Part shown: in pieces, positions 3,291 to 13,318 of the stretch
Numbering within the stretch: the stretch's first letter is position 1
How the letters are laid out: the number at the start of each line of letters is the position of its first letter
IMG/VR virus record: IMGVR_UViG_3300046000_008157
Coordinates: 1-21,836 of that record
Reading direction: 5' to 3' (one strand)
Length of the DNA stretch: 21,836 nt
Origin: a virus
The notes under the pieces: generated by a model
What the model saw: only the letters and a program-made list of their open reading frames with translations
Database searches by the model: none
Told to the model about the DNA's origin: nothing
Position numbers and translations under genes: made by a program

Positions 3291-3384
3291 CTACCGTTCC
3301 TGACGGCCGCTGTAAGTTTCGCGTAAGGAAAGTCGCCAATGATGCGTGTGTCGCGCCGATGGGCGGTGCGCAAGGAGTAGAGAG

Positions 3385-3561
3385 ATGGAAGCACGGATCG
3401 AGATCGTGAACGTAGGCGCCGACACGGCGCGCGCCTGCTGGGTTGAGTTCGCCGACCTGGACGCCGCTTACGCGTTCACCGCGGGCTATCCCGGCGCGTA
3501 CTGGACCGACCTGCAGGTCGCGGACGACGGCGTGATCGAGATCGTGATCGCGATCGAATAA
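3385..3561 (+). CDS. Hypothetical protein, 58 aa
   Basis: First gene of the rightward early cluster. The ATG at 3385 is chosen because AAGGAG lies 7 bases before it; a longer frame from 3346 has no ribosome site. The protein is small and acidic, with alternating hydrophobic and charged residues (MEARIEIVNVGADTARACW at the start and DGVIEIVIAIE at the end), suggesting a compact beta-rich fold. I recognise no family. Its position right after the main control region, ahead of many similar tiny genes, fits early phage proteins acting on the host, but that is inference. Confidence 0.7.
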   Translation: MEARIEIVNVGADTARACWVEFADLDAAYAFTAGYPGAYWTDLQVADDGVIEIVIAIE

Positions 3562-3564
3562 CCA

Positions 3565-3592
3565 CGGGCCTACGGGCCCGATAAATAGGAGC
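3565..3592 (+). promoter_or_regulatory. Intergenic hairpin with ATAAATAGGAG leader (copy 1)
   Basis: CGGGCC and GGCCCG (3565-3570, 3575-3580) form a perfect six-base-pair stem on a TACG tetraloop. It starts three bases after a stop codon and is followed directly by ATAAATAGGAG, which contains the Shine-Dalgarno of the gene at 3599. It resembles the leaders before 3745, 4532 and 5349. Confidence 0.55.
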
Positions 3593-3598
3593 GAGAAA

Positions 3599-3673
3599 AT
3601 GGAATTTGTAATGATGATTGCCTGCGTAGGCGTGCTGATAAGCGTCGTCGCGCTTGCGATGTTTTTGGATTGA
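3599..3673 (+). CDS. Single-pass membrane microprotein, 24 aa
   Basis: A very short gene with AGGAG 8 bases before its ATG. The product starts MEFVMMIACVGVL, continues as an uninterrupted hydrophobic stretch and ends FLD, so essentially the whole chain is one membrane helix. No family is recognised. It sits between a hairpin leader upstream and another downstream, in line with its neighbours, which argues that it is a real gene. Two more tiny hydrophobic genes in this cluster (4965, 6471) have a similar build. Possible roles include modulating a host membrane protein; this is speculation. Confidence 0.6.
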   Translation: MEFVMMIACVGVLISVVALAMFLD

Positions 3674-3736
3674 CCCCGAGTTATAGCCCCGCGAGTCGGG
3701 GTTATGGCGCGCGGTTTGCGCGGATAACGACAGGAG
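3673..3736 (+). promoter_or_regulatory. Tandem hairpins with GATAA-ACAGGAG leader (copy 2)
   Basis: ACCCCGA (3673-3679) can pair with TCGGGGT (3696-3702); an alternative inner stem is CCCCG with CGGGG. A second stem, CGCGC/GCGCG (3708-3712, 3718-3722), encloses GGTTT and is followed by GATAACGACAGGAG, the ribosome site of the gene at 3745. There is no T-run. It is the second of four similar leaders. Confidence 0.5.
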
Positions 3737-3744
3737 TGATGACG

Positions 3745-4467
3745 ATGACGACCCCGAGCGGATTTGTGTTTTACGACGGCCCGAGCGTGATTGACGGCGC
3801 GCCGATTATCGGCATAGCTGTGCTGCACTCGGAGAATTCGAAAACCGGCGATATGGTGCAGACCTATATTCTGCGCGCCGATATGTCCCCGCTGGACGCG
3901 ATAGCGTCGGGGGCGGATTGGAGTATTTGCGGTGATTGTGGCCACCGTGGAAACCCGGAGCTCGAGATAAAGCGCAGCTGCTACGTAAACGTAGGTCAGT
4001 CCGTGCAATCCGTATTTGCCGCGTGGGTTCGAGGCTCATACCCTGCAGTGTCCCCGACGGCCGGCGCGCGCATGCTGGCAGGTCGCACGGTCCGTATCGG
4101 TTCGTATGGTGATCCTGCGGCTATTCCGGCGCGCGCGTGGTTTACGCTGGTTCGCCACGCTGACGGCCACACGGGGTACACCCACCAATGGCGCCGTGCC
4201 GCTGCGCTGCGGCCGCTGGTAATGGCATCGGTCGATACCGTGCCCGAGCGCGACGTAGCGCGCGCAATGGGTTGGCGCACGTTTCGGGTCCGCAGCGCTG
4301 ATCAGCCGCTTGGCGCGCGCGAGATTGTTTGCCCTGCGTCGCCCGAAGGTGGCGACCGGCGGCAGTGTGTGACCTGCCGCGCGTGTGACGGCGCCGATCG
4401 GCCTGGTAAAGCCAGCGTCGCGATTGTTGTTCACGGGACAATGGCTAAGTATTTTGCCGCGGCGTGA
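3745..4467 (+). CDS. Conserved phage protein of unknown function with two cysteine clusters (DUF7227-like)
   Basis: A 240-residue protein, the best conserved-looking member of the early cluster. Near the N-terminus it has DGPSVIDGAPIIGIAVL and KTGDMVQTYILRADMSP, followed by SGADWSICGDCGHRG and RSCYVNVGQ, a pattern I associate with an uncharacterised phage family (DUF7227, from memory). Cys62, Cys65 and Cys79 could bind a metal; a second cluster (CPAS, CVTC, RAC) lies near the C-terminus, ahead of VAIVVHG. I use the ATG at 3745, because AGGAG lies 8 bases before it and only 2 bases before the ATG at 3739. The cysteine clusters suggest a zinc-stabilised DNA- or RNA-binding protein, but the function is not known. 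Confidence 0.75.
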   Translation: MTTPSGFVFYDGPSVIDGAPIIGIAVLHSENSKTGDMVQTYILRADMSPLDAIASGADWSICGDCGHRGNPELEIKRSCYVNVGQSVQSVFAAWVRGSYPAVSPTAGARMLAGRTVRIGSYGDPAAIPARAWFTLVRHADGHTGYTHQWRRAAALRPLVMASVDTVPERDVARAMGWRTFRVRSADQPLGAREIVCPASPEGGDRRQCVTCRACDGADRPGKASVAIVVHGTMAKYFAAA

Positions 4468-4477
4468 ACGTAGGGGT

Positions 4478-4522
4478 TAGCCCGGCGCGCCGGGCTACAC
4501 CGTGCGTTTTGCACGATAGGAG
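4478..4522 (+). promoter_or_regulatory. Perfect 20-bp palindrome plus hairpin leader (copy 3)
   Basis: Positions 4478-4497 are a perfect 20-base palindrome centred on GGCGCGCC. A second hairpin, CGTGC/GCACG with a GTTTT loop (4501-4515), follows, and ATAGGAG (4516-4522) leads to the ATG at 4532. It starts 11 bases after a stop codon. No T-run follows. Its order of elements matches the leaders at 3673 and 5281. Confidence 0.55.
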
Positions 4523-4531
4523 ATATCGAAA

Positions 4532-4759
4532 ATGACCCCCCCGAACGATACCCCGATCCTGCGCCGCGTAGACGCGTCCGATGGCCTATCGGTGACGCTG
4601 ACGCGCACGCTACTGGGAACCTGGCGCGTAGTGTTTTGCGACACCGATGCCGAGCGCGTAATCGAATCGCGCGTGTTCTCGCATTTCGAATCTGCCGAGT
4701 TTTACGCGTCGAAACTGATTCCCGCCCCGATTCGGGGCACACTGGAGAACGACGAATGA
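4532..4759 (+). CDS. Hypothetical protein, 75 aa
   Basis: Preceded by AGGAG about 9 bases before the ATG. The product has a hydrophobic-alternating core (LSVTLTRTLLGTWRVVF), then ESRVFSHFESAEFYASKL, suggesting a small alpha/beta fold. No family recognised. Its stop overlaps the next start by four bases (ATGA), so the gene at 4756 is probably translated by coupling. The palindromic leader at 4478-4522 is directly upstream. Confidence 0.7.
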   Translation: MTPPNDTPILRRVDASDGLSVTLTRTLLGTWRVVFCDTDAERVIESRVFSHFESAEFYASKLIPAPIRGTLENDE

Positions 4760-4962
4760 CGACGACGACCGAAATGAGCCCCGCCCTGCGGGAAAAGCTG
4801 ATCGCCAAGGGATGGAACCCGGATAACGTGTGCTGGGGCCGCCGCGTCAGCGGCTCGCCTCACGGGATGACGCTGGAGCGCGACGGCGTGGAGCGATATC
4901 ACTCCGGCCCCTTCGTCCCCATCCACGCCGACGGGCAGTCGGCCATTGTGCGCTGGAGCTGA
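4756..4962 (+). CDS. Hypothetical protein, 68 aa
   Basis: Starts at the ATGA overlap with the preceding gene. A longer frame from 4636 exists, but its extra 40 residues are Arg-rich and overlap the neighbour, so I reject it. The product begins with MTTTTEMSPALREKLIAKGW and continues with WGRRVSGSPHGMTLERDG and a C-terminal SAIVRWS. It looks like a small soluble protein; no family recognised. GGAG near its end serves as the ribosome site of the next gene. Confidence 0.68.
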   Translation: MTTTTEMSPALREKLIAKGWNPDNVCWGRRVSGSPHGMTLERDGVERYHSGPFVPIHADGQSAIVRWS

Positions 4963-4964
4963 CC

Positions 4965-5054
4965 GTGGAAAACGTACCCCTGACCCTCGCCTGCGTGGCG
5001 TTCGCCATCGCGTTCGGCCTTGCCCTGGGCGCCCTGGTGGCGCTCGGGTTTTGA
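4965..5054 (+). CDS. Single-pass membrane microprotein, 29 aa (GTG start)
   Basis: Begins with GTG at 4965, two bases after the previous stop, with GGAG six bases upstream inside the previous gene. The product is MENVPLTLACVAF followed by a Gly/Ala/Leu-rich hydrophobic run to the end, one membrane helix with a small-residue face (GLALGALVALG) of the type that packs against other helices. No family recognised. It is the second of three hydrophobic microproteins in this cluster. Confidence 0.58.
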   Translation: MENVPLTLACVAFAIAFGLALGALVALGF

Positions 5055-5076
5055 TACTGACGGCAGGAGAGAGAAG

Positions 5077-5280
5077 ATGCAATACGCCACGAAAGCCACA
5101 TGCACCCGCTGGGGTGCGCAGAAAGGCGCGCGCCGCGTGTCTGGCCTCACTGCCGGCGAACGAGCCGCAGTGCGTGCCGGCGTTGAGATCCGGCTCGCCG
5201 GCTGCCCGCCGGTGCGCGGCGTCACTGACCGTCGCATAGTCGAGTCCGGCGGCCGGTTTTATACCCGGATGCCGGTGTGA
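5077..5280 (+). CDS. Hypothetical basic protein, 67 aa
   Basis: The ATG at 5077 follows AGGAGAGAGAAG, giving a clear ribosome site. The frame is open further upstream, but that part overlaps the microprotein gene. The product is rich in Arg and Ala (MQYATKATCTRWGAQKGARR, then RRIVESGGRFYTRMPV), compatible with nucleic-acid binding, but there is no recognisable motif. It ends one base before the tandem hairpin leader of the next gene. Confidence 0.65.
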   Translation: MQYATKATCTRWGAQKGARRVSGLTAGERAAVRAGVEIRLAGCPPVRGVTDRRIVESGGRFYTRMPV

Positions 5281-5345
5281 CGCATCCGCCGAGCCCCCCA
5301 CCGGGGGTTCTGGGATGCGCCACGGTGGCGCAGATAAAGAGGAAG
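5281..5345 (+). promoter_or_regulatory. Nested and tandem hairpin leader (copy 4)
   Basis: An outer stem CGCATCC/GGATGCG (5281-5287, 5313-5319) encloses an eight-pair stem, GAGCCCCC/GGGGGTTC (5291-5298, 5303-5310, one G-U). The hairpin GCGCCA/TGGCGC (5317-5322, 5326-5331) follows, then AGATAAAGAGGAAG with the ribosome site of the gene at 5349. The outer stem and the last hairpin share three bases, so they could be alternative folds. No T-run follows. Confidence 0.55.
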
Positions 5346-5348
5346 ACG

Positions 5349-6044
5349 ATGACGACGACCCCCGAGAAGATCCACGTTGGCCGTATGGTGCGGTTTTCTG
5401 CCGGCTACGGCGGCATTGACGGCACCGGCGCCATTGTGGCCGTGCGCGGCACGGTCAACATGCAGCCGGCGCAGCGCATCGGCATCTTGCGCGTGATCCG
5501 CGCCGACGACTGCGAAATTGATGTAATTCTGTTCGATGGCCGTATGCTGCGCGGCATCGAGCAATGCGGCATCGACGCGCCCGGTATCGGCATCAAGCTG
5601 CTGGACGACGTGCTTGATGACGTCTCGCACCTGCCGGCACTGGTGGCCGAGCGTGAAGCTGCCGAAGCCATCGCTGCCGCGAAAGCCCGCGCAGAGTTCG
5701 AAGCTGCCGAAGCTGCGCGCGTGATCACGGATGCGCCGCTGTTCTACTGGAACGGGATCAAGGATCACCGGGGCGCGAAGTTGCAAAAAGTGTTTTACAG
5801 CCTAGGCGGCCTGCGCAATCATCCCGACGCCACGATTACGATTTACGGGCGCGGGTATGAGGGCTTCAGCACGAAGGTGCGCGAGTGCTTCGCAGTGCAA
5901 AACGACACCGATACGCAGGTCGATTATTTCGACAAAGACCGTATCCGCGTCATTCCCTCGCATCCGCTGTATGCCGCCGTCAAGGCCGCGCACGATGCCG
6001 GCGCAGCACGCAACGCCAAGCGCTACGGGCGCGCTGCGGCATGA
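5349..6044 (+). CDS. Hypothetical phage protein with central coiled coil, 231 aa
   Basis: The largest unknown of the early cluster after the cysteine-rich protein. The ATG at 5349 follows AGAGGAAG; an in-frame ATG at 5277 would put the hairpin leader inside the gene, so I reject it. Residues 1-95 look beta-rich with Gly turns (HVGRMVRFSAGYGGIDGTG), reminiscent of an SH3- or KOW-like barrel. Residues about 97-125 are an Ala/Glu helix likely to form a coiled coil (LVAEREAAEAIAAAKARAE). The rest has aromatic and charged segments (DAPLFYWNGIKDHRGAK, TITIYGRGYEGF). I recognise no family. Its stop overlaps the next start (ATGA). Confidence 0.7.
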   Translation: MTTTPEKIHVGRMVRFSAGYGGIDGTGAIVAVRGTVNMQPAQRIGILRVIRADDCEIDVILFDGRMLRGIEQCGIDAPGIGIKLLDDVLDDVSHLPALVAEREAAEAIAAAKARAEFEAAEAARVITDAPLFYWNGIKDHRGAKLQKVFYSLGGLRNHPDATITIYGRGYEGFSTKVRECFAVQNDTDTQVDYFDKDRIRVIPSHPLYAAVKAAHDAGAARNAKRYGRAAA

Positions 6045-6193
6045 CCCCCACCCCCAGCACCCCCGCCGAGCCCCTACGCGGGCCCCTGTGGCCTTTCCCG
6101 CCTGCACTGCTGGACTACCCCAGCATGCCCCCCTGCGCGCGCCCTGTGGGCCGCGTAATCCCGCCGGCCAATGCCGAGCCGGCGCCGTTTTGA
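6041..6193 (+). CDS. Small proline-rich hypothetical protein, 50 aa
   Basis: Starts in an ATGA overlap with the stop of the preceding gene, so translation by coupling is likely. The product is extremely proline-rich (MTPTPSTPAEPLRGPLW and PPANAEPAPF) with no expected fold. Low complexity and lack of an own Shine-Dalgarno leave some doubt, but it fills the gap exactly and ends 12 bases before the next ATG. Confidence 0.5.
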   Translation: MTPTPSTPAEPLRGPLWPFPPALLDYPSMPPCARPVGRVIPPANAEPAPF

Positions 6194-6205
6194 GGAGCAA
6201 CGAAA

Positions 6206-6460
6206 ATGCACACACTGCAGTACCCGACCCCCACCGTTAGCCGCGAGTGGGCCGCTAGCCGCGAGACTCACCCGGCCGTAGCCATGGCGATTCACGCCGT
6301 CAGCGGCCCGGGGCGCACGCCGGAGCAGATTTGGGAGGACCCGACGCAAGCGGAATTTGATCACGTCCGCATGGCCGTCGAGAATTACGTCTCTGCCGGC
6401 GTCTTTGATGGCGAGACAGATCATTGCTACCCCTGGGGTTGCGCCGTAATTGTTTTCTGA
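6206..6460 (+). CDS. Hypothetical protein, 84 aa
   Basis: Clear ribosome site (GAGGAG, 8 bases before the ATG). The product contains a helical region (HPAVAMAIHAVSGPGRTPEQ), then IWEDPTQAEFDHVRMAVENY, with the C-terminus ending GCAVIVF. The build recalls small phage proteins of unknown role. It is followed 10 bases later by a possible microprotein. Confidence 0.7.
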   Translation: MHTLQYPTPTVSREWAASRETHPAVAMAIHAVSGPGRTPEQIWEDPTQAEFDHVRMAVENYVSAGVFDGETDHCYPWGCAVIVF

Positions 6461-6588: not shown

Positions 6589-6631
6589 CGCCCCGGCGCC
6601 TGGCGCCCATCGCCGGCCGGGGCGTTTTTTT
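6589..6631 (+). terminator. Rho-independent terminator of the early cluster
   Basis: CGCCCCGG (6589-6596) pairs with CCGGGGCG (6617-6624), with further pairing inside, followed directly by seven T residues (6625-6631). This is a textbook intrinsic terminator for rightward transcripts. Unusually, the ribosome site GGAG (6632-6635) and the ATG of the next gene (6644) follow at once, so it may act as an attenuator for that gene. Confidence 0.8.
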
Positions 6632-6643
6632 GGAGCATCGAGA

Positions 6644-6934
6644 ATGCTTGTCCTGACCCACTGCGACGCGCCGCCCAATCTCCGCGCTGCCGGCATTGTT
6701 GCCGCTGAACGGTTTTTCGCAGAATCCGGCGTCGACCCAATCGCCGCTTGGCGGGCCGCCGAAAACGTCAGTTTCGGCCAAGCGTATGACCGCGACGCCC
6801 TGCGCGCGTGGTATCTGGCCGAGGACGCCGCTGTTTTGGCCATGTACGGGCGCTGGCGCCACGCACCCGCCAGCGTGGCGCTGGAGTGGCGCGCGGAGCC
6901 GGTCAGACCACGCGCCGCATCGGGGTCGGCATAG
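6644..6934 (+). CDS. Hypothetical protein, 96 aa, downstream of a terminator
   Basis: The ATG at 6644 follows GGAG at an 8-base spacing. A longer frame from 6464 would run through the terminator hairpins and is rejected. The product begins MLVLTHCDAPPNLRAAG and has helical segments (AAERFFAESGVDPIAAWRAA and DALRAWYLAEDAAVLAMYG). No family recognised. Its last 32 bases overlap the end of the primase-helicase gene on the other strand. Expression would need readthrough of the terminator or a promoter that I cannot see between 6589 and 6644. Confidence 0.62.
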   Translation: MLVLTHCDAPPNLRAAGIVAAERFFAESGVDPIAAWRAAENVSFGQAYDRDALRAWYLAEDAAVLAMYGRWRHAPASVALEWRAEPVRPRAASGSA

Positions 6935-11240: not shown

Positions 11241-11432
11241 ATGACCACGACCATCAATGTTCACGAAATTGTCAGCGTGCGCGTTGACAAGCGCTCTCTC
11301 GCTGAGGGCGTCACTTGGCGCCACATCATCATCACCGACGCAAACGGTCGCGAGACGAAGATCGTTTTGTTTCCTGACGATTACGACAGCCCGGAGCAGA
11401 TCAGCATCATTGACGAGGAGCGGCAGCCGTGA
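11241..11432 (+). CDS. Hypothetical protein, 63 aa
   Basis: The ATG at 11241 is preceded by GGAGGT six bases upstream, and sits one base after the previous stop. The chain reads as a small beta-rich domain (VHEIVSVRVDKRSL, RHIIITDANGRETKIVLFP) with an acidic tail (IIDEERQP). No family recognised. The stop overlaps the GTG start of the YqaJ-type exonuclease, so the two are coupled. Confidence 0.7.
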   Translation: MTTTINVHEIVSVRVDKRSLAEGVTWRHIIITDANGRETKIVLFPDDYDSPEQISIIDEERQP

Positions 11433-12094
11433 TCCTCGAAACCGCCACCCAGCGTGATGCCGACTGGTACGCCGCCCGCGTCGGCAAGGCCACCGCGTCC
11501 CGGTTCAAGGACGCCATTGCTACCAAGAAGCAGACGGAAAAGCAGAAGAAAGACAACCTGCCAGGCGACCCCATGCAAGCGCAACTCGACTACTTAACCG
11601 AACTGGTTGTCGAGCGCCTGACGCAGCAGCCGGTGCAGCGTTACGCCACCGCCGCCATGCAGTGGGGCACCGAGCAGGAGCCCGCAGCGCGTGCGGCCTA
11701 CGAGCGCGCAACCGGCACCAGCGTCGAGGAAACCGGCTTCGTCGCGCACGACACGCTGCTGGCGGGCTGCAGCCCGGATGGCTTGGTGGACTGGGACGGG
11801 CTGATCGAGATCAAGTGTCCGTACAACAGCGCCGTGCATATCGAAACGCTGCTGCGTGGCATGCCCGACGAGCACACCGCTCAGGTGCAGGGTCAGATGT
11901 GGATCACTGGCCGCCAATGGTGCGATTTCGTTTCCTACGATCCCCGGATGCCCGCTGAACTGCAGTTGCACATTCAGCGGATCAACCGTGACCCTGGCTT
12001 CATTGCTGACCTGGAAGCCAAGGTTACGTCTTTTCTGCAGCAGGTCGGCATTCAAGTCGAGGCGCTGCGGCGTCTCGCGGAAAGCAAGAAATGA
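11429..12094 (+). CDS. YqaJ/lambda-exonuclease-like recombination exonuclease
   Basis: A 221-residue nuclease of the YqaJ family, which includes lambda Red exonuclease; members degrade one strand from double-strand ends and feed the annealing protein. Key features are QRDADWYAARVGKATASRF near the N-terminus, MQWGTEQEPAARAAYE (Glu82, Glu84), GCSPDGLV (Asp117), IEIKC (Glu127, Lys129) and the Gln-rich AQVQGQMWITG helix (151-161), all in family order. The start is GTG at 11429, overlapping the preceding stop. It pairs functionally with the DUF1071-type annealing protein at 12635. Confidence 0.9.
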   Translation: MILETATQRDADWYAARVGKATASRFKDAIATKKQTEKQKKDNLPGDPMQAQLDYLTELVVERLTQQPVQRYATAAMQWGTEQEPAARAAYERATGTSVEETGFVAHDTLLAGCSPDGLVDWDGLIEIKCPYNSAVHIETLLRGMPDEHTAQVQGQMWITGRQWCDFVSYDPRMPAELQLHIQRINRDPGFIADLEAKVTSFLQQVGIQVEALRRLAESKK

Positions 12095-12634: not shown

Positions 12635-13318
12635 GTGCAAATTCCCAATCTAGCCGGAGTTGCCACGGACGATCTGGTGGAAACCATCGGCGCCGGCAGT
12701 TTCAAAGCCTCCTACATCAACTGGTCGCGCACCTTGCAGCTTCTGCGAGAACACGCGCCCGGTTGGCTGCCAGAGACGGTTCCCAATGCAGAGGGAAGCC
12801 TGCTGCATGCGGCGCCTGTTGGTTGTTATTTGCTGATCCGTTTCCGCAATGGTGAGCAGGTCACGCCCGCAGTCCCGCAAGCCGTCATGGATACGCGTAA
12901 CGCCGCAATCCAGCGCGACAAGATCACGGCGCGCGACCTGACGGATACGCATCGTCGAGGCGTTTGCTTGGCGGCGGCTATGACGTTCGGCCTTGCTTAC
13001 GAGCTATGGGCCAAGCTGCCGTTGGAGTCCGGTCACGAGGAGGAGAAAAAAGACGAAAGGCAAGAGCGCCGCGCTACTCCCAAACCGCCGGTAGCGCCGC
13101 CGCCGCCAAAGCCTCCTGTGGTACCGCCGCCGCCCGCGTCTACGGTAAGCGTCAACGCCCTGCTGGAGCAGATTGAGCTTGCCAGCACGATGGAGGGCCT
13201 AGAGTTGCTTCGCATTGACATCAACCGGCTACCAAAGGGAAGCGAAGAACGAAAGCAAGTCATTGAGGCGGCAACTCGTCGCACCAACCAGATCCGCGCC
13301 GAGGAGGGCGCCGTATGA
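12635..13318 (+). CDS. Single-strand annealing protein, DUF1071 (Sak3-like)
   Basis: A 227-residue putative recombinase. DUF1071/Sak3 proteins bind single-stranded DNA and anneal homologous strands, usually with a partner exonuclease, here at 11429. Residues 1-135 match the core: ASYINWSRTLQLLREHAPGW, GCYLLIRFRNGEQVTPAVP, then AAIQRDKITARDLTDTHRRG and LAAAMTFGLAYELWAKLP. Residues about 149-167 are a Pro-rich linker, and the last 55 residues form a small helical domain (LLEQIELASTMEGLELL). That tail could contact the exonuclease or SSB. The start is GTG at 12635 with GAGGAG upstream. Family assignment is from remembered motifs. Confidence 0.78.
   Translation: MQIPNLAGVATDDLVETIGAGSFKASYINWSRTLQLLREHAPGWLPETVPNAEGSLLHAAPVGCYLLIRFRNGEQVTPAVPQAVMDTRNAAIQRDKITARDLTDTHRRGVCLAAAMTFGLAYELWAKLPLESGHEEEKKDERQERRATPKPPVAPPPPKPPVVPPPPASTVSVNALLEQIELASTMEGLELLRIDINRLPKGSEERKQVIEAATRRTNQIRAEEGAV

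Follow-up and report, generated by a model that had tools for sequence, protein, structure and literature searches.

It is an open question how phages exchange small early genes and yet leave the expression of neighbouring genes undisturbed, and the boundaries of mosaic segments usually carry no recognisable shared sequence (PMC3029335). The locus examined here is a series of small + strand genes extending from 3385 to about 6900 of the window, i.e. the whole 21.8-kb virus record (IMGVR_UViG_3300046000_008157), which belongs to a virus that infects bacteria. A preliminary description had pointed to a GC-rich hairpin ahead of the Shine-Dalgarno (SD) sequence of the genes starting at 3599, 3745, 4532 and 5349, whose leaders are referred to here as leaders 1 to 4. 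For comparison, loci were collected from environmental virus contigs by protein search (15, 80 and 80 loci with the genes at 5349, 3745 and 6903, respectively, as queries), and extra stretches from relatives were gathered through pattern searches. A DNA search of phage isolates gave partial matches confined to the 3745 gene and none to a leader of the leader 4 type, and a protein search of bacterial genomes returned four weak matches in metagenome bins. When the window and 16 related loci were compared with Rfam at curated cut-offs, no family was matched, and neither of the two leader families described below has a match there. The gene at 3745–4464 is a member of phrog_2554 (DUF7227); its relatives are spread over 148 phage records, many of them from Mycobacterium, Gordonia and Klebsiella phages and often close to the genome end.

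The hairpin is present before all four genes, located between the stop codon of the upstream gene and the SD, and is followed on its 3' side by an A-rich spacer. In 200 dinucleotide shuffles, the folding energy was in excess for leaders 1, 3 and 4, with z values of −2.7 (−2.67), −3.9 (−3.87) and −2.5, respectively, but not for leader 2 (z −1.0 to −1.4), which is not significant by energy alone, so that the support for leader 2 comes from comparison. More generally, of the SD-start sites, 22.6% in the window and 24.5% in close relatives had a strong hairpin upstream, compared to 4.5–4.7% of ATGs without an SD, and shuffling the upstream sequences reduced the hairpin rate to about one third of the overall rate; distant relatives showed no excess of strong hairpins before SD-starts. 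Of the 81 tetraloop hairpins with C-G closure located ahead of SD-starts, 57 had a UNCG loop and none its reverse complement; once the stem used as search pattern was left aside, the counts were 26 of 49 against none. The comparison is equal by construction when both strands are counted irrespective of genes. In the long hairpin (form I, see below) of the two families, G-U pairs outnumbered A-C pairs by 34:0 and 72:4. The UNCG strand asymmetry and the excess of G-U over A-C identify the sense-strand RNA as the selected molecule. No terminator-like site (a GC stem followed by a T-run) was found on the + strand at leaders 1 to 4, in agreement with the preliminary description, which had noted that T-runs are missing and that the hairpins are not terminators. 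The hairpins before 3599, 3745, 4532 and 5349 are real and selected as RNA structures.

The four leaders had been taken as copies of one recurrent element, a view that did not hold when models were built and searched. Specifically, the model derived from leader 4 (R1) matched only leader 4 in the window, and the model derived from the class C relatives of leader 2 alone (R2) matched leaders 2 and 3, giving three types. One family for all four leaders was consequently rejected. Covariance modelling against related phages thus yielded two covariation-supported families, though no single four-copy family. The earlier suggestion that stem sequences differ while pairing is kept was strongly supported in both, with two-sided changes at seven of eight pairs in the leader 4 family and 16 of 19 pairs in the leader 2/3 family.

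Leader 2 (class C; 3671–3736, + strand) starts at the TGA stop codon 3671–3673, which is paired in the lower stem (3672–3675/3713–3716 and 3677–3678/3710–3711), continues into an upper stem (3680–3691/3697–3708) and ends at the SD (3732–3736). A stem at 3673–3702, which had been described as an additional hairpin of this leader, proved to be a competitor of this supported structure, with its upper stem at 3680–3691/3697–3708 and its lower stem reaching the stop at 3671. An alternative second hairpin (3709–3712/3718–3721) is followed by the spacer GATAAC; the “GATAA” of the preliminary description is not a separate site but an unpaired spacer shared by several leader types, as exemplified by this one in the leader 2 family. 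Leader 3 (class D; 4465–4522, + strand) has the TGA stop 4465–4467 at the base of the long hairpin, an upper stem at 4478–4485/4490–4497, an alternative second hairpin at 4502–4505/4511–4514 and its SD at 4518–4522. With R2, leader 2, a member of the training set, scored 88.8 bits, and leader 3, which lies outside the training set, was matched with 37.2 bits (E 5e-7), as were several other diverged copies. Leaders 2 and 3 therefore form one covariation-supported family.

In an alignment of 51 rows (A6) fitted to the model, and so biased towards the model structure, the two-sided changes at 16 of 19 pairs gave a score of 0.473 compared to 0.181 for shuffled alignments, reached in none of 500 shuffles, and of at most 0.10 when the structure was slid; the lower stem alone showed two-sided changes at five of its seven pairs. 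The 5' base of form I is the in-frame stop codon that ends the upstream gene, and this codon takes part in the pairing of the lower stem, as UGACC/GGUU in class C, UGAAC/GUUU in class D and UGAUC/GAUU in relative L279. An in-frame stop at the 5' base of the hairpin was found in 49 of 49 rows, and 45 of these had TGA at column 1 (37 rows), TAA at column 1 (one row) or TAA with its last base at column 1 (seven rows). In the alternative form II, the 3' arm of the lower stem re-pairs as a second hairpin, which could form in 48 of 49 rows compared to 6.8 expected from shuffled tails; one row (L044:5899), an opposite-strand shadow, was excluded from the second-hairpin and co-change counts. The chief argument that both folds have been maintained is the joint change of three columns. 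The partner of column 45 is column 8 in form I but column 58 in form II, and columns 8/45/58 read GCG in 25 rows, AUA in 13, AUG in 10 and CGC in one, with both pairs kept in 49 of 49 rows, although, because the rows are related, these changes represent fewer events than cells. The predicted energies of forms I and II were −26.0 and −25.3 kcal/mol for leader 2 and −32.9 and −25.8 kcal/mol for leader 3, the latter being 7 kcal/mol apart. In the leader 2/3 family both of these mutually exclusive helices are thus conserved. Two leaders from relatives that are unrelated in sequence, at L153 1960–2031 and L066 3582–3648, showed the same geometry of a 5-bp lower stem, a 1x1 loop, 2 bp, a second 1x1 loop and an upper stem of 10–12 bp, and that of L153 also has an overlapping second hairpin.

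Leader 4 (class G; 5278–5345, + strand) lies between the TGA stop 5278–5280 and the start codon at 5349, and comprises an outer stem (5281–5287/5313–5319), an inner stem (5291–5298/5303–5310), an alternative second hairpin (5316–5322/5326–5332) and an SD at 5339–5345. A pattern made from its conserved part found 91 stretches, 51 of which contained the inner stem. All 51 had a TGA located 6–7 nt before AUCC, this stop closing an open frame of at least 53 codons in 48 instances, and 49 were followed by an SD and an ORF. For the inner helix, an alignment (A1) with two-sided changes at seven of eight pairs scored 0.375 compared to 0.125 for shuffled alignments, a value again reached by none of 500 shuffles, and sliding the helix gave no more than 0.08. 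The second hairpin, GATGC/GCATC, is built with the 3' arm of the outer helix; it is 94% paired and could form in 40 of the 43 rows, where 9.5 would be expected. Forms I and II of leader 4 were predicted at −31.4 and −31.0 kcal/mol. The two-state reading is nevertheless weaker here than for the leader 2/3 family because there is hardly any variation in the outer helix, part of which the search pattern had kept constant. With R1, leader 4 itself scored 65 bits (E 3e-18; training-set member) and relatives outside the training set, such as L210, L217 and L222, 65–67 bits. There were 79 strong R1 matches in environmental virus contigs, which were flanked by 28 gene families on the upstream side and 30 on the downstream side, combined in 57 ways, and preceded by TGA wherever a stop could be assigned; in 300 genomes of the order to which one of the weakly matching bacterial bins belongs, a search carried out without a positive control, R1 had no match. 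Matches of R1 on the opposite strand were discarded as weak shadows of the near-palindromic stems. In one relative of leader 4 (L007 3455–3521), the facing internal-loop residues G,G had changed together to A,A, a single case that hints at a conserved non-canonical pair.

Leader 1 (class A; 3559–3591, + strand) is shorter, with the stop TAA at 3559–3561, a hairpin at 3565–3580, the A-rich spacer, an SD at 3587–3591 and the start codon at 3599. The hairpin, CGGGCC(UACG)GGCCCG, has 6 bp and a UACG loop, and the leader folds with −14.0 kcal/mol. Class A copies in relatives (n=34, a pattern-selected set) all lay 6–14 nt past a stop and 5–7 nt ahead of an SD, and joined five upstream with 12 downstream gene families. 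Neither leader 1 nor the other short types (A, E and F) showed a switch. Between leaders 1 and 2, positions 3599–3673 encode a 24-residue hydrophobic ORF (MEFVMMIACVGVLISVVALAMFLD), a position occupied by other genes in relatives.

Leaders are found at the four genes first singled out and also at others in the window, namely those at 3385, 4756, 6206 and 6644. The first-gene leader (class B; 3313–3376, + strand), before 3385, consists of a GTAAG...CGTAAG element, a hairpin, CGCGCCG(AUGGG)CGGUGCG, and an SD, and the same leader stands ahead of several unrelated first genes in relatives. The motif GTAAG-N4-CGTMAG-N8-14-CCGACACT precedes the hairpin in this leader (3313–3346) and in internal class F leaders. 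This motif also occurs in relatives (e.g. L006 6729 and L024 5365), where an SD and ATG follow 58 of its 60 copies. The GTAAG repeat of classes B and F is a candidate early promoter or protein-binding site; no sigma-70-type site was found at the leaders. Before the gene at 4756, a class F-like hairpin, GCCCCG(AUU)CGGGGC, is followed by an SD (4724–4746, + strand; z −1.5, not significant alone). The coding end of ORF 4532–4759 takes in this hairpin, which is intergenic in relatives; leader and coding sequence may have merged. A class I leader (6160–6198, + strand), with the hairpin GCCGGC...GAGCCGGC and an SD, precedes the gene at 6206. At 6597–6632, a hairpin followed by seven T and directly by GGAG, ahead of the start codon at 6644, resembles a terminator placed on a ribosome-binding site, and genes of this family in relatives have a comparable leader.

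Clustering of upstream sequences gave recurring leader types, each found ahead of different genes. Across 43 operon stretches, the order B, A, C, D, F, G, I held in 244 pairwise comparisons and was broken in two, counts that are not independent as the stretches come from related phages. The numbers of downstream gene families for these types were 4, 12, 13, 2, 11, 7 and 7, respectively. The leaders are thus constant and ordered and the genes vary, with as many as 13 gene families found downstream of a single class. Judged from sequence comparison, the leaders are a fixed scaffold and the genes between them are exchanged. This ordered scaffold with swapped genes, the anchoring at the stop codon and the alternative pairing had been overlooked in the earlier reading.

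These observations suggest, though tentatively, that the leaders serve as portable translational insulators at cassette boundaries, a reading that we consider plausible without favouring it strongly. Each leader would be a cis-acting folded RNA spanning the gap from the upstream stop codon to the next SD, in which the hairpin at the stop codon would block post-termination ribosomes from reaching the next start. A terminating ribosome positioned on the stop would open the lower stem, and the freed 3' arm could then form the second hairpin; this would leave a barrier in front of the ribosome, with the SD still unpaired. Each gene would in this way be translated from its own SD, whatever its neighbour. 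In line with this, structure placed right after an upstream stop lowers coupling in a library screen, according to the summary of that work in a review (Chemla et al., reviewed in PMC12548453). The SD was predicted to be unpaired with probabilities of 0.82, 0.65, 0.29 and 0.80 in leaders 1 to 4; the mostly paired SD of leader 3 (29% unpaired) fits control of the SD, not insulation. The leaders of types A, E and F, which show no switch, and the gap of 7 kcal/mol between the two forms of leader 3 also count against insulators. The shared leaders may in addition provide homology for gene swaps by the phage's own annealing recombinase: the window encodes, both on the + strand, a YqaJ-family recombinase/exonuclease (11429–12094; PF09588, E 5e-28) and a probable Sak-type single-strand annealing protein (12635–13318; PF06378, E 2.6e-4), whose 21.0 bits fall just under the curated cut-off of 22.3 bits, and together these could recombine cassettes at the leaders. 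It is possible, if more doubtful, that the leaders represent a new class of phage RNA, a two-state element built on any upstream stop that senses termination and acts as a portable gene boundary, with the operon being a series of ordered RNA slots for exchanged genes. An insulator device would permit gene insertion beside any neighbour, and the leaders could supply natural translational insulators for gene circuits.

Other explanations account for part of these data. The conservation of both alternative helices, the location of the stop codon within the lower stem, the near-equal energies of the two forms in leaders 2 and 4 and the mostly paired SD of leader 3 in the predicted ensemble would also suit a termination-responsive switch, in which a ribosome at the upstream stop switches the RNA between forms I and II and so raises or lowers the expression of the next gene, like translational attenuators or coupling by RNA unfolding. 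We regard such a switch as unlikely: the SDs of leaders 2 and 4 are not strongly sequestered in either form (65–80% unpaired), and the upstream gene varies freely, so that no dedicated leader peptide is kept. In phages T7 and T4, with which the leaders were compared, processing gives genes their own protected transcripts. The same could be achieved here by cleavage at the hairpins, through RNase III acting on form I or RNase E acting in the A-rich spacer, and the intergenic position, the irregular 19-bp form I and the A-rich single-stranded spacer past the hairpin are consistent with this role in mRNA processing or stability. It is nonetheless quite unlikely, as the stems of types A, E and F (6–9 bp) are too short for RNase III and processing leaves the paired stop codon and the kept second hairpin unexplained.

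Antitermination acting on RNA polymerase, which had been proposed earlier by likeness to the put sites of phage HK022, now appears improbable. In the published description of put RNA (PMC9378689), as in leaders 2 to 4, two stem-loops occupy about 70 nt in a phage early operon, and the LoaP antiterminator binds UNCG hairpins (PMC12691694). Put RNA, however, is described as occurring once downstream of each early promoter, and the leaders are present in many copies at internal gene junctions of one operon; nor does that account of put (PMC9378689) mention alternative pairing of a stop codon. Neither R1 nor R2 had a match in HK022 25000–40751, a record in which put is unannotated, and no NusG-type gene was recognised among the scanned proteins. 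Shared sequence kept purely for cassette recombination, with hairpins that have no role in expression, would agree with the ordered scaffold of exchanged genes and with the presence of the Sak-like annealing protein and YqaJ. This last explanation is highly improbable: compensatory changes, a G-U bias on the sense strand and UNCG loops are not expected from selection for sequence identity, and a boundary acting as DNA only is contradicted by changes that are compensatory and strand-specific.

Among known systems, phage T4 carries stable CUUCGG (UNCG) hairpins between genes, a likeness to the leaders, whose stems differ in being diverse and in their link with the SD of the following gene. The SAS/ESAS elements of cluster K mycobacteriophages are likewise repeated just upstream of the start codons of several non-structural genes, about half of them with inverted repeats (PMC3203893). 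However, SAS is a fixed 13-bp sequence that includes the SD, and ESAS hairpins in mRNA had little support in the original study (PMC3203893), whereas in the leaders it is the pairing that is conserved. The SAS sequence GGGATAGGAGCCC gave five matches with three mismatches compared to 6.1 expected, none of them at the leaders, and identity with SAS was rejected since the sequence is absent beyond chance. Translational attenuators and coupling through RNA unfolding, as in the MS2 lysis gene and f1 VII/IX (reviewed in PMC12548453), resemble the proposed behaviour of the leaders in that the ribosome on the upstream gene changes which helix forms. Their inhibitory helix covers the next ribosome-binding site, whereas that of the leaders covers the upstream stop and leaves the SD mostly free. 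The PeSLs of T4-type phages (Arbiol 2010; Comeau 2014) are composites of an early promoter and a stem-loop terminator in the account of the paper that cites them (PMC4503421). As characterised there, they differ from leaders 2 to 4, which have no T-run or recognised promoter and whose folds cover the stop, end at the SD and have an alternative pairing; the terminator feature is absent from leaders 1 to 4. PeSLs are, by the same account, short regulatory stem-loop segments between small early genes, linked to gene shuffling among related phages, and the leaders also sit between genes that are swapped among related phages. On these descriptions in the citing paper, which set the leaders apart in structure, PeSLs would be the closest known elements in evolutionary role.
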